From contig JAJEGY010000031.1 in NCBI GenBank assembly GCA_022819585.1, positions 1-64,000 on the forward strand: a DNA stretch of 64,000 nucleotides, read 5' to 3'. Shown one piece after another: positions 30,175 through 34,915 of the stretch; position 1 is the stretch's first letter; every line of letters begins with the position of its first letter. The notes under the pieces are model-generated. The model searched no databases, was not told the DNA's origin, and saw nothing but the letters and a program-made list of their open reading frames with translations. This DNA is from Dehalococcoidia bacterium (GTDB lineage: Bacteria > Chloroflexota > Dehalococcoidia > Lucifugimonadales > Lucifugimonadaceae). A program made the translations under genes and the position numbers.

Positions 30175-30906
30175 CTACTTCAGCGAGTCCAAATACTCCT
30201 GCATCATCGCATCCGTCGGAGGGTAGTACCTACCAGGCCGGACGTTTTCGTTGAGGATCTTCTCTTTGACGTAGCCTTCGACGCCTTCGTGCTCTTCGAC
30301 CCATACGACGGCTTCTTCGGCGAACCATGATGGGACTACCACGCAGCCGTCATCGTCGCCTACGATGACATCGCCGGGACGTACGAGCGCGCCGCCGCAT
30401 TGGATGTCGCAGTTTTCGTATGCAGGGTCGGCCCAGGGGCGTCCGCCGTAGGGGCTGCGCTCTTGGGCGTAGACCGCGAAGCCGTAGTCTTCGTCTTCTA
30501 GGACGCCGAGGTCGCGGATCGCGCCGTCGGTTACCAGGCCGTCTGCCTTGTTCATCTTGAGTTGCATGAGCTTGACATCGCCGGCTACCGCGGCCCACTG
30601 CTTGCCCATGAGGTCGGCGACGAGGACATCGCCGGGTCCGCATCGTGCCATGGCCTGGTATTCAGGAGAGTTTTCGCCGCGTTTGGCCTCGGCGTCTAGG
30701 TCTGGTCGGGGTGGGAGAAAGCGGAGAGTTCGTGCTCTAGCGGCGAGTCGTTTGCCGGGGGTGAAGTTTCGGACGCCTTCCATGAACGGCAGGGGAACAC
30801 CAGCGACGTTTGCGACGGCGGCCCACGTCGTGGCGACTGGTAGCTTTCGGAAACGGTCGAGGATGTCGTCGGATACGTCGACGGGAGCGAATGATCGGTC
30901 TGCCAT
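30175..30906 (-). CDS. RraA-family aldolase/decarboxylase
   Basis: 243 residues. The RraA-like blocks are clear: '[12 protein letters not shown]', '[11 protein letters not shown]' with the substrate-binding Arg and metal Asp, and '[18 protein letters not shown]'. Members of this family include 4-hydroxy-4-methyl-2-oxoglutarate aldolase and oxaloacetate decarboxylase, and others without known activity (often misnamed as menaquinone methyltransferases). AAGG lies about ten bases before the ATG. The product fits the catabolic theme of the window, releasing pyruvate from keto acids; the actual substrate is uncertain. Confidence 0.85.
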
Positions 30907-30974
30907 TTGAGTAGGAACCTTTCGATTTTGTGTTGAGTAGCTCTGTTGTTGGCGTTGATGATGATACTTCAGGG

Positions 30975-31105
30975 TTTTGGATTGGGATTCTTGGGATTTG
31001 GTGTTGGTTGTTTGGGGTACCCCGCCCGTTTGTCCGCCCCGGTCACCCTCACCCTAGCCCTCTCCCGCCGAGCGGGAGAGGGGATCCCGCTTTCGCGGGA
31101 ATGAC
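30975..31105 (+). repeat. dispersed composite repeat, copy C
   Basis: Contains GGGATTCTTGGGATT (30984-30998), GTTGGTTGTTTGGGG, CCCGCCCGTTTGTCCGCCCC, the CTCTCCCGC/GCGGGAGAG hairpin (31060-31080) and a second small hairpin CCCGCTTTCGCGGG. It lacks the left module GTGTTGTCAAG and the right module with the GGGCCGTTC palindrome that copies A and D have. It marks the left side of the gene-free island 30.9-32.5 kb. Confidence 0.8.
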
Positions 31106-32111
31106 GCAACTGGGCGTGTTTAAACGCCTCGCGTGGTGTTCGGGAGGCGTTGGGAGGGCGATTTGGGTTTTGCCCTCTTGCTGGTCGGTCTTGTTTTTTG
31201 TTTGGTCTAGGTTTTTCTCATGCGGTTGCTGTGGTTTGGTGCTTGCCCGGCACGAGGGCGACTGCGAGAGTCGCCCGTTCGGGTCCCTTTCGGGCGGTTT
31301 CGAGGCATCGCCGCGGTCCTGGGGATCGTTGGACTTTGGTCCTTTGGGCGATAACTTCTTATTTCTTCAAAAAGTTCGAGCGTCGCCGTCGTCGCCAGAC
31401 CGACGGCCCGGCGTGCGGATTCGGTTTGCACCCCGCACGCCATCACTTGGTTCTTGCCCCTCGTTGGCGCTCTGGCCGTCCCGCACGACGAAGCGGAATC
31501 GGCTTGTGTGGATAAGAGAAGACCTCGTCCAGGCCTTGAACTTCGGTTTTCATCACATGCTCGACGTTTCGTCGGGGGTCGTTCCACGTCTCTTCGCACT
31601 CGGCGAAAGCGGCGGGCTGCGCCACCTGTTCTTCACCTTTGCACCCTCCCCGCGTCATCGTCCCTGTCTCTCCGCGTCTGCGCCTTCCCGTGCGCATCCC
31701 TTGTGCGCCGTCTCTGCGCTGAATGGAAGAGGCGGTCCTGACCTTCCGCGTCGCGTCTCGCATCGTGATTATGCCGTCGTCTGGCTCGTGTTGGGGCTTA
31801 AGCAGTACATCGCCCCGCCTGAACCGTGCAGCTACATCCTTCTCCTTAACCGTTGTCACCGCGTCGCTCCATGCAACAAGAGACGTCGACGGGCACCGTC
31901 GCGATAGGCGCGCAGCGCGACATCGGGCCTTGCGCCTCGGGGTTCTACACCTCCGGCCTCGGGGCTCTCTGCCTGCTTTCACGCTTCTCATGTGTTCTCC
32001 GTCCGCGGTTTCATGTCACTTCAATCGACGATAGCTTCCACTAAGGGCGCGACCCCTGGTTGCGGCGATCCTCTGGGCGTTTCGACCGATGGCCGTCGGC
32101 TTGAACGCTTG
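31106..32111. other. gene-free GC-rich stop-poor block between repeat copies
   Basis: About 1 kb without a recognisable gene. Overlapping frames are open on both strands, the longest being 182 codons on the minus strand (31443-31991), Arg-rich, preceded by GGAG six bases before its ATG, and one on plus of over 300 codons crossing the repeat. Such multi-frame openness argues for non-coding or structured sequence. Local hairpins are obvious, for example GGGCGACT...AGTCGCCC near 31258-31280 and GTGCGG...CCGCAC-type pairing near 31415-31437. No rRNA, RNase P, tmRNA or group II intron core could be identified. It is bounded by repeat copies C and D. Confidence 0.4.
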
Positions 32112-32460
32112 TTGTTTATTGAAACATGTGTTGGGCGTGTTGTCAAGTTGTTTTTTGAACGGGGATTGTTGGGGTTTTTGTGGGATTCTTGGGATTTGGG
32201 GTGCGTTGTTGGTTGTTTGCCTTGCCCCGCCCGTTTGTCCGCCCCGGTTGCCCTCACCCTGGCCCTCTCCCGCCTAGCGGGAGAGGGGACACAGTACTGC
32301 GTGAGAGGAGGAACGTGCGTGGTTGATGGAGGTTTTAGTCGGGGTTTTGGAGGTGCGGGAAGGAAGATGTGGTTTTTGGGTGAGTCCATCATTCTGCGAA
32401 GGGCGCTTCGCTTCCTTCGCAGCCCCTCCCCGGGCCGTTCTCGAACGGCCCCAACGTAGT
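32112..32460 (+). repeat. dispersed composite repeat, copy D (full length)
   Basis: Colinear with copy A: GTGTTGTCAAG (32137-32147), GGGATTCTTGGGATT (32182-32196), GTTGGTTGTTTG, the CTCTCCCGC/GCGGGAGAG hairpin (32265-32285), GGTTGATGGAGGTTTTAG-like text, CTTCGCAGCCCC and the GGGCCGTTC/GAACGGCCC hairpin (32432-32451). As with copy A, a GC-rich stop-poor block lies directly to its left, so block and repeat may form one unit. Confidence 0.8.
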
Positions 32461-32503
32461 TGCCGTTCCCCTTGTTGTTTACGAACGGGTGATGGGATGC
32501 TGA

Positions 32504-32983
32504 TCAGCGTTTTTCGCGGGATTTGATGGCGGTGATTACTTCGTCCACGTGCATTCGACCCACCGGTCCGGACGCGTAGATAGAACCGAAGATTATGCCG
32601 CCTCGGGAGATTAGGAGTTCGGCGGGTTGCATGTAGCGCCCGTGGTGGTCGGTTGTCCACCATGCGCCAACGTCTGCGAACTCGGTTTCGTTGACGTTGT
32701 ATGCGACCGGGAATGTGAGGCCGAGGTCGTCGCGCATCGCTTTGACCTCTTCTTGTGTTCCGCCAGTCGCGGCTATGACTTGTGCGCCTAGTTCATTGAG
32801 TTCTTCGAGGTTTTCCTGGTAGCTGCCTAGCTGCCTGCGGCAGTAGCTTCACCACGCGCCTCGGAAGAAGAGAAGTGCGATGTAGCGGGATGTCATGCCT
32901 CGTGGCAAAGAGAGTTCCTCGCCATCGACTAGTTTGAGGTTGAGTTTTGGCAGGCGGTCGCCTTGTTGGAGTTTTTCGGACAT
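32504..32983 (-). CDS. peroxiredoxin-like selenoprotein with in-frame UGA (UxxC motif)
   Basis: A 159-codon AhpC/TSA-type thioredoxin-fold protein interrupted once by TGA at codon 45 (32851-32849). Reading the TGA as selenocysteine gives FFRGAW-U-SYCRRQL, exactly the FYRGxWCPYC active-site motif of this family, with Sec in place of the first Cys and Cys48 as the resolving residue. Both sides continue the same domain: before it 'GDRLPKLNLKLVDGEELSLP', after it 'LEELNELGAQVIAATGGTQEEVKAMRDDLGLTFPV' and 'PAELLISRGGIIFG'. The ATG at 32983 has no Shine-Dalgarno site, but TAAAAT lies six bases upstream, so it may be leaderless. It follows the SulP gene by 33 bp. The alternative, a nonsense mutation, is less likely because the UGA falls precisely on the catalytic Cys. 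It should reduce peroxides. Confidence 0.8.
32818..32835 (-). promoter_or_regulatory. candidate bacterial SECIS hairpin
   Basis: Starting 13 bases after the UGA codon, GG-AGCU pairs with AGCU-CC with one mismatch, closing a four-base AGGC loop that begins about 20 bases after the UGA. The loop has G in its second position, as in known bacterial SECIS elements bound by SelB. An overlapping alternative stem (CTGCC with GGCAG) is also possible, so the exact fold is not certain. Confidence 0.5.
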
Positions 32984-33016: not shown

Positions 33017-34915
33017 TTATCGTGCTGGGTTGGTTTCTTGACCGAGTATCGCGGATGCTTGGTTGCCTGCGGTTTCGGGTGTGGTGTCGAAGCCGAGCAT
33101 TTCCAGGGCTAGTAGTTTTGCATCTTCGATAGTGTCGACGATGTGATCTTCAGGCACTTCGTCGATGGCGTTCATGGCTCGTAGAGCGGTTTCGGGGACA
33201 CCGCTTAGACCGACGAGGAGACATTCGGAGTGTTCAGTTTTGGCGACGTCGATCATTTGCTCGACGACTAGGGCAGCGGAGTCGTCGATGTAGACGGTGT
33301 CGGTGAAGTCGAGGATGACGATTTCGTGTTGTTGAATGTCTTCGCCGATTATGGTGATGAGTCGACTAGAGGATGAAACGGTGAAGCTTCCTCTGAGGGA
33401 TACCAGTCCGACACGCGCGGCGAATATATCCATGGTTCTCGCGGCGCGGTATCCGGCGAAGAAGACTTGGTCGATGATGGGAACAGAGATGATGCTGTCG
33501 AGTTCGAGACGCTCAAGTTGTCTCGCAGTCGCCATGCCCGCGGCGATCAGACCGATCGCGACCGCGGTGACGAGGTCGAGGAAGATGGTCAGGAACATGG
33601 TGATGACCATGACAATGAGGTGTTCACGTTGGACGCGATGGATGCGAGTGATGAATCGCCAATCGATGATGTCCCACCCGACTTTAAGGAGGATCCCGGC
33701 GAGCGCGGCGAGAGGGATGCTTTCAACGTATTGTCCGAGTCCAAGCACGAGAGCGAGGAGTATCCCAGCTCTTATAGCACCGGATACTGGTGTACTTCCG
33801 CCAGCGCGGAGATTGACGACCGTTCCGAGCGTAGCGCCAGCACCGGGCAGTCCACCGATGAATCCGGCGATGGTGTTGCCGATGCCTTGTCCGACGAGTT
33901 CCTTGTTGGGATTGTGTCTGGTGCGCGTCATCGAGTCGGCGATGAGCGACGTGAGGAGGGAGTCGATGGAGCCGAGGAGGGCGATGATGAGAGCGGGTTG
34001 TACGGCCTTCACGAGGAATGCGCCGGAGATTTCGGGGAGCTGAATGGATGGGAGACCGGTGGGAACTTCGCTGATGACTGGTGCGTGTGTGAGCCATAGG
34101 ACTCCGAGCAGCGTGCCGGTGACGAGTGCGGCGAGAGTTGATGGGAAGAAGCGATGGAGTTTCTGCGGCCATAGGATGCCGACGGCTAGAGTTGCGGCGG
34201 CGATGATGAATGCGTCGAAGTCGATGTTTGGAATGGCTTCGGGCAATGCTCGGATAGCGCCGACCGGCCCGCCTGATACTCCTTCCTGTCCGATGAATGG
34301 GAGGATCTGAAGGATGATGATGATGACACCGATGCCGGACATGAATCCGGAGATGACGGAGTAAGGGGTGTAGGCGACGAAGCGTCCGATTTTTAGAACG
34401 CCGAGGAGGATTTGGATGATGCCGGCGAGGATGACGATGGCGAAAGCCTCGCCCAGATTGTCGGGTCCGGCGAGGGTTACGACCGCGGCCATAGCTACGG
34501 ACATAGGCCCGGTGGGTCCTGAGATCTGGGATCTGGTTCCACCGAACACGGCGGCGAAGAAACCGACTGCGATTGCGCCGTATATTCCTGCAACGGCACC
34601 TAGTCCGGACGCGACGCCGAAAGCGAGCGCAACGGGGAGGCCGACGACAGTGGCAGTCAGTCCGCCAAAGATGTCGCCTTTCAGGGTTTCCAGATCATAG
34701 CTGAACTGAAACTTTTCGACGATATTTTGCAACTGGATTTTGTTTGGATACGCTGTATCGTTTAGTTTGTAGTGAGGACATTTTACGGGGATTTTGTCAA
34801 TTCTGTTAGGGAATATTGAGGAATCCTCGGGATGCGACGTGCAGGATGGCGTCAGAATGAGCGGATTTGGCGGAATCGGTGTGGTATATTGCAAGTAAGA
34901 CGATGCGACCCGCAA
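33017..34915 (-). CDS. SulP-family anion transporter with STAS domain
   Basis: Up to 632 residues, but the first 60-65 look non-coding in style and the true start is probably a TTG near residue 63. The transport domain ('ISGPTGPMSVAMAAV', 'SGFMSGIGVIIIILQ', 'GLPGAGATLGTVVNLRAGG') has the 14-helix SulP pattern. The last 130 residues are a STAS domain with 'DFTDTVYIDDSAALVV'. SulP proteins move sulfate or bicarbonate; the substrate here is not determined. The putative selenoprotein peroxiredoxin gene lies 33 bp downstream, so they may share a transcript. The gene is divergent from dxs. Confidence 0.85.
   Translation of the reverse strand: MRVASSYLQYTTPIPPNPLILTPSCTSHPEDSSIFPNRIDKIPVKCPHYKLNDTAYPNKIQLQNIVEKFQFSYDLETLKGDIFGGLTATVVGLPVALAFGVASGLGAVAGIYGAIAVGFFAAVFGGTRSQISGPTGPMSVAMAAVVTLAGPDNLGEAFAIVILAGIIQILLGVLKIGRFVAYTPYSVISGFMSGIGVIIIILQILPFIGQEGVSGGPVGAIRALPEAIPNIDFDAFIIAAATLAVGILWPQKLHRFFPSTLAALVTGTLLGVLWLTHAPVISEVPTGLPSIQLPEISGAFLVKAVQPALIIALLGSIDSLLTSLIADSMTRTRHNPNKELVGQGIGNTIAGFIGGLPGAGATLGTVVNLRAGGSTPVSGAIRAGILLALVLGLGQYVESIPLAALAGILLKVGWDIIDWRFITRIHRVQREHLIVMVITMFLTIFLDLVTAVAIGLIAAGMATARQLERLELDSIISVPIIDQVFFAGYRAARTMDIFAARVGLVSLRGSFTVSSSSRLITIIGEDIQQHEIVILDFTDTVYIDDSAALVVEQMIDVAKTEHSECLLVGLSGVPETALRAMNAIDEVPEDHIVDTIEDAKLLALEMLGFDTTPETAGNQASAILGQETNPAR

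Follow-up and report, generated by a model that had tools for sequence, protein, structure and literature searches.

The gene and its surroundings

The window (the whole stretch of 64,000 nucleotides that was analysed) comes from a Chloroflexota (SAR202-like) bacterium, whose genome is 2.47 Mb in size and 93% complete. On the minus strand, an AhpC/TSA-family reading frame of 159 codons (32983-32504) extends from an ATG to a TGA stop codon at 32506-32504, and contains one internal TGA. Given the frame, its Pfam match, its homologues and an AlphaFold2 model, we annotate 32504..32983 as a complete gene for a predicted peroxiredoxin-like (Prx-like) UxxC selenoprotein of 159 residues, MSEKLQQGD...FFRGAWUSYCRRQL...KSREKR. 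The internal TGA (32849..32851, minus strand) is read as selenocysteine (Sec45), and the TGC at 32840..32842 (minus strand) encodes its partner Cys48, so that the motif in this protein is USYC.

The earlier note on this DNA had described a single frame interrupted by one TGA, with a second Cys at +3 and homologous sequence continuing for 114 codons, and had regarded any two-piece gene as a mis-annotation. This description stands. The Pfam AhpC-TSA match covers residues 8-131, across the TGA (1.8e-17; 63.9 bits versus a cut-off of 26), and 114 codons run from TGA codon 45 to the stop. The gene is whole, and a standard-code ORF call recovers just a 77-aa fragment of it (32737-32504).

A gene for a SulP-type sulfate permease with a STAS domain (33017..34915, minus strand; Pfam Sulfate_transp, 4.5e-79) ends 33 nt upstream, and the two genes are probably co-transcribed. 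The permease gene adjoins the Prx-like gene in all seven members of the genus; next to the 25 homologues from outside the genus, no such gene was found in the stretches examined. On the other side, about 1.6 kb (30906-32504) lack a convincing gene and contain a 94-nt repeat, present twice, with the REP-like palindrome CCCTCTCCCGCC(G/T)AGCGGGAGAGGG. When we scanned the window for UGA-containing frames with redox-like motifs, 78 mechanical candidates resulted, among which we recognised no other known protein by eye.

Elsewhere in the same genome, three adjacent Prx-like frames (L062:222-2572, corresponding to C35:229221-231571 on the minus strand) have lipoprotein-like N-termini and look exported. 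Each has an in-frame TGA at its motif (FFUGIC, WUGFC and WUPYC, respectively), and one has a long Pro/Thr-rich linker. Judging by these motifs, the three frames are likely to be further UxxC selenoproteins.

Conservation of the TGA and the selenocysteine machinery

In a set of 149 relatives, exactly one in-frame TGA occurs in most of the closest matches. We aligned 32 homologues, which come from many genera of the order, and found the TGA at the same column in 30 of them, including all seven genus members; the remaining two have TGC. None of the 32 lacks the Cys at +3, so the UxxC motif occurs throughout the 30 Sec homologues. One Sec gene is accompanied by a tandem paralogue with TCA (Ser) at the TGA column (L042:1501-2502), possibly an intermediate in the loss of Sec. 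Distant plasmid homologues in Deinococcus, Mycobacterium and Lichenihabitans exhibit WCPYC or WCPFC at the site. Those of Deinococcus and Mycobacterium, which belong to the peroxiredoxin family, share roughly 30-33% identity with the studied protein over the full length and read YRGxWCPYC, but have Cys where it has Sec. The Deinococcus gene lies between genes for an FAD-dependent oxidoreductase and a YkgB-family protein (L059:1-862), which are a possible functional context for it.

Across the seven congeners, pN/pS is 0.27 upstream of the TGA and 0.24 downstream. Together with the conservation of the site, this similarity indicates that the part of the protein past the TGA is made and used. 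It also bears on the possibility that the gene is a pseudogene, or that a sequencing or assembly error converted TGC or TGT to TGA. TGA differs from TGC by one base only, and metagenome-assembled genomes make up the related records. Nevertheless, we rule out this possibility as highly improbable, given that 30 genomes, each assembled separately, have TGA at this codon, that purifying selection is undiminished beyond it and that the whole-chain model is well folded (pLDDT 93).

The host genome is equipped for Sec insertion. A tRNA-Sec gene, the sole match in an Rfam search, is located at C11:22924-23017 and scores 69.7 bits, as compared with a background of 52.6 bits for one tRNA-Ser of the same genome; ARAGORN also calls it SeC, with the anticodon TCA. 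Matches to selA (537 bits), selB (336 bits) and selD (375 bits) complete the set that the earlier note had named as the companions of a true selenoprotein gene. The selD gene has its own in-frame TGA near the N-terminus (ASCAGUAGK).

The presence of tRNA-Sec is also evidence against a changed genetic code in the host genome, in which TGA would stand for Trp, Gly or another standard amino acid. Such a reassignment could account for a frame that is open through the TGA, and a Trp codon does precede it. However, TGA ends the Prx-like gene itself and 21 of the 43 long non-overlapping ORFs of the window (a mechanical choice that may include some non-genes), and homologues have Cys at the site rather than Trp or Gly. 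The use of TGA as a stop codon therefore rules out a reassigned code, to which we give practically no chance.

Genomes with the Cys form of the gene provide a natural control. One of them, G116, is from the same order and 91% complete. Its best tRNA-Sec match (E = 1.7e-9) is no higher than those of tRNA-Ser genes, and a search of this genome gave no selA or selB match above the cut-off. Thus, G116 appears to have lost its Sec system (tRNA-Sec, selA and selB), yet keeps the Prx-like gene as a Cys form. By contrast, 18 of 20 sampled relatives with the UGA form have a tRNA-Sec match of more than 60 bits, a line that we set above the tRNA-Ser level. The other two of the 20, G109 and G132 (81 and 84% complete), are without a clear tRNA-Sec, and both have selB above the cut-off. 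The other Cys form occurs in G130, a genome with tRNA-Sec, selB and also a UGA-bearing paralogue that is more distantly related, which means that the Cys form does not require the machinery to be lost.

Based on these comparisons, we are highly confident that the in-frame TGA encodes Sec in a redox enzyme, a confidence that does not extend to the identity of the substrate.

The SECIS-like hairpin

A SECIS-like hairpin occurs at 32818..32835 (minus strand), with the arms GG-C-AGCU and AGCU-A-CC and the apical loop AGGC, which starts at nucleotide 21 past the TGA. All six pairs and a 4-nt loop are retained in the seven genus members. Since the pairs are invariant, no covariation is available from the genus. 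The hairpin alone is not more stable than shuffled sequences (z +0.86) and differs from the minimum-energy fold; folding energies of single sequences were uninformative regarding a SECIS.

Unusually little synonymous variation in this region supports the hairpin. In the genus, the 13 codons after the TGA have a synonymous homozygosity of 0.80, versus 0.60 elsewhere (p = 0.014). The same kind of synonymous-codon test on all 30 Sec genes was only suggestive (p = 0.08). At +6, each of the 30 Sec genes encodes Gln by CAG, while the Ser paralogue has CAA and both Cys genes have His (CAC).

The 23 Sec genes outside the genus exhibit a hairpin at alignment columns 14-19/25-30, whose loop, AGUUR, starts 17 nt past the TGA. 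Its cells are 88% paired, 16 of them compensatory as compared to 8.0 in shuffles (0 of 500 shuffles reached this number), and its covariation score is 0.306, versus at most 0.123 for slid versions. This order-level hairpin is not formed in the genus. Indeed, no single exact pairing is common to the genus and the other members of the order, and RNAalifold favours other pairings. We also considered the minimum-energy hairpin by the Cys codon (order columns 8-13/17-22), which is well paired, and rejected it as a SECIS, as it has neither compensatory changes nor an excess over shuffles.

Complementary arms also flank a GGUC or AGGU roughly 21 nt past the UGA in the three other UxxC frames of the genome, and a hairpin with the loop GGUAU lies further downstream in selD. 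This similarity between loops was spotted post hoc, and is therefore a lead rather than a test.

Overall, comparative sequence analysis supports well the existence of an element downstream of the UGA, putatively a SECIS. The hairpin proposed in the earlier note is present as sequence and gains from this comparative support, but it is not more stable than shuffles would be, and its exact pairing in the studied gene is probable rather than proven.

Active site, enzyme class and possible function

The AlphaFold2 model of the whole chain has a pLDDT of 93.1, and its best matches in the PDB are the peroxiredoxins Bcp4 (TM 0.88; Z 22.6), BcpB and AhpE. The active site of peroxiredoxins is defined by the motif PxxxT(S)xxC and a catalytic Arg. 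In an alignment to solved peroxiredoxins that is free of gaps at the site, Cys48 coincides with the peroxidatic Cys and Sec45 with the Thr of PxxxTxxC. Arg41 takes the place of the Pro, and Pro120 that of the conserved Arg. Both replacements are invariant in the family alignment (Pro120 in 33 sequences). Thus, the site reads RxxxUxxC, and the Cys equivalent to C_P is the only one of the canonical residues that is kept. Pro120 is a candidate for a cis-Pro facing the active site.

According to the earlier note, the TGA coincides exactly with the catalytic Cys of the family. This is correct with respect to Prx-like homologues with CxxC, in which the corresponding residue is the first Cys (WCPYC), but the peroxidatic Cys of canonical peroxiredoxins corresponds to the Cys at +3. 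Sec45 also aligns with the first Cys of the CxxC in ResA, which is the best NCBIfam match at 35 bits, far under its cut-off of 170. The NCBIfam model for SelL and SelL-related proteins (NF040769) scores 22.9 bits versus a cut-off of 120. With Sec45 at the Thr position and the Pro and Arg of peroxiredoxins replaced, the protein is predicted to have a peroxiredoxin fold that carries a thioredoxin-type WUxxC active site at the N-terminus of a helix. We saw no signal sequence in the protein, which is therefore probably cytosolic.

Published descriptions of the Prx-like UxxC class match the studied protein, so that its assignment as a new member is well supported. As the earlier note stated, such selenoproteins are known from marine metagenomes. 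Sargasso Sea data yielded a description of them (PMC1088965), the GOS survey included 225 sequences of 'Prx-like 1' (PF00578, UxxC) (PMC2398784), and PMC13188914 lists them as high-confidence predictions. Like the studied protein, the published family combines an AhpC/TSA domain with Sec in UxxC; its Cys homologues have CxxC, and it is common in marine microbes. We found no essential difference in a comparison with these published descriptions. A literature search on SAR202 selenoproteins found no papers.

Two other groups are similar in part. Sec-containing peroxiredoxins of the TxxU type share the fold and the Pfam family, but their Sec is the peroxidatic residue and is preceded by Thr at a distance of three, whereas the studied protein has Sec at the Thr position and Cys at the peroxidatic position. 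The ResA/TlpA thiol:disulfide oxidoreductases have a CxxC-type site that aligns with UxxC. However, they are exported, in contrast to a protein with no signal sequence seen, and its structure is closer to peroxiredoxins.

In the mechanism that we propose, the hairpin just past the UGA would recruit SelB carrying Sec-tRNA-Sec, so that Sec is inserted at position 45, as the observed machinery and conservation suggest. Because of the chemistry of such motifs, Sec45 would most likely be the nucleophile, acting on a peroxide or a disulfide, and Cys48 would be the resolving residue, forming an intramolecular selenenylsulfide with it. The enzyme could then be regenerated by thioredoxin or a comparable reductant.

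If Sec is inserted, there is about an even chance that the protein acts mainly as a thiol:disulfide oxidoreductase of the thioredoxin/ResA-like type, built on a peroxiredoxin scaffold. The alignment of WUxxC with the CxxC of ResA, the rank of ResA among NCBIfam matches in spite of its low score and the name used in the literature, Prx-like thiol:disulfide oxidoreductase (PMC13188914), point in this direction. On the other hand, the overall fold matches of this candidate disulfide reductase place peroxiredoxins first. These structural matches, together with the Pfam AhpC-TSA assignment and the alignment of Cys48 with the peroxidatic Cys, agree with an enzyme that is mainly a thiol peroxidase, in which Cys48 or Sec45 reduces hydroperoxides. 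We place the probability of the peroxidase role slightly below one half, as the change from PxxxTxxC to RxxxUxxC and the invariant Pro120 at the Arg position mean that the peroxide-activating site is not conserved. A more specific proposal, which we consider speculative and unlikely, is that the proteins form an order-wide, mostly Sec-dependent subfamily of distinct oxidoreductases, in which a peroxiredoxin scaffold gained WUxxC and lost the Pro, Thr and Arg of peroxiredoxins, and that in the genus they are coupled to the SulP anion permease and may act on a reduced sulfur or selenium species.

Regardless of the substrate, the predicted Prx-like UxxC selenoprotein has two wider implications. 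As standard gene callers cut the gene to a 77-aa fragment, Dehalococcoidia/SAR202-like genomes are likely to carry wrong annotations of it and its relatives. Moreover, the genes together amount to a clean natural experiment in Sec use. Most genes have UGA, two have a Cys form (one of them in a genome that is apparently without Sec machinery) and one is a Ser paralogue in which the frozen codon of the hairpin region is altered. The cost and benefit of Sec are therefore testable within one enzyme.
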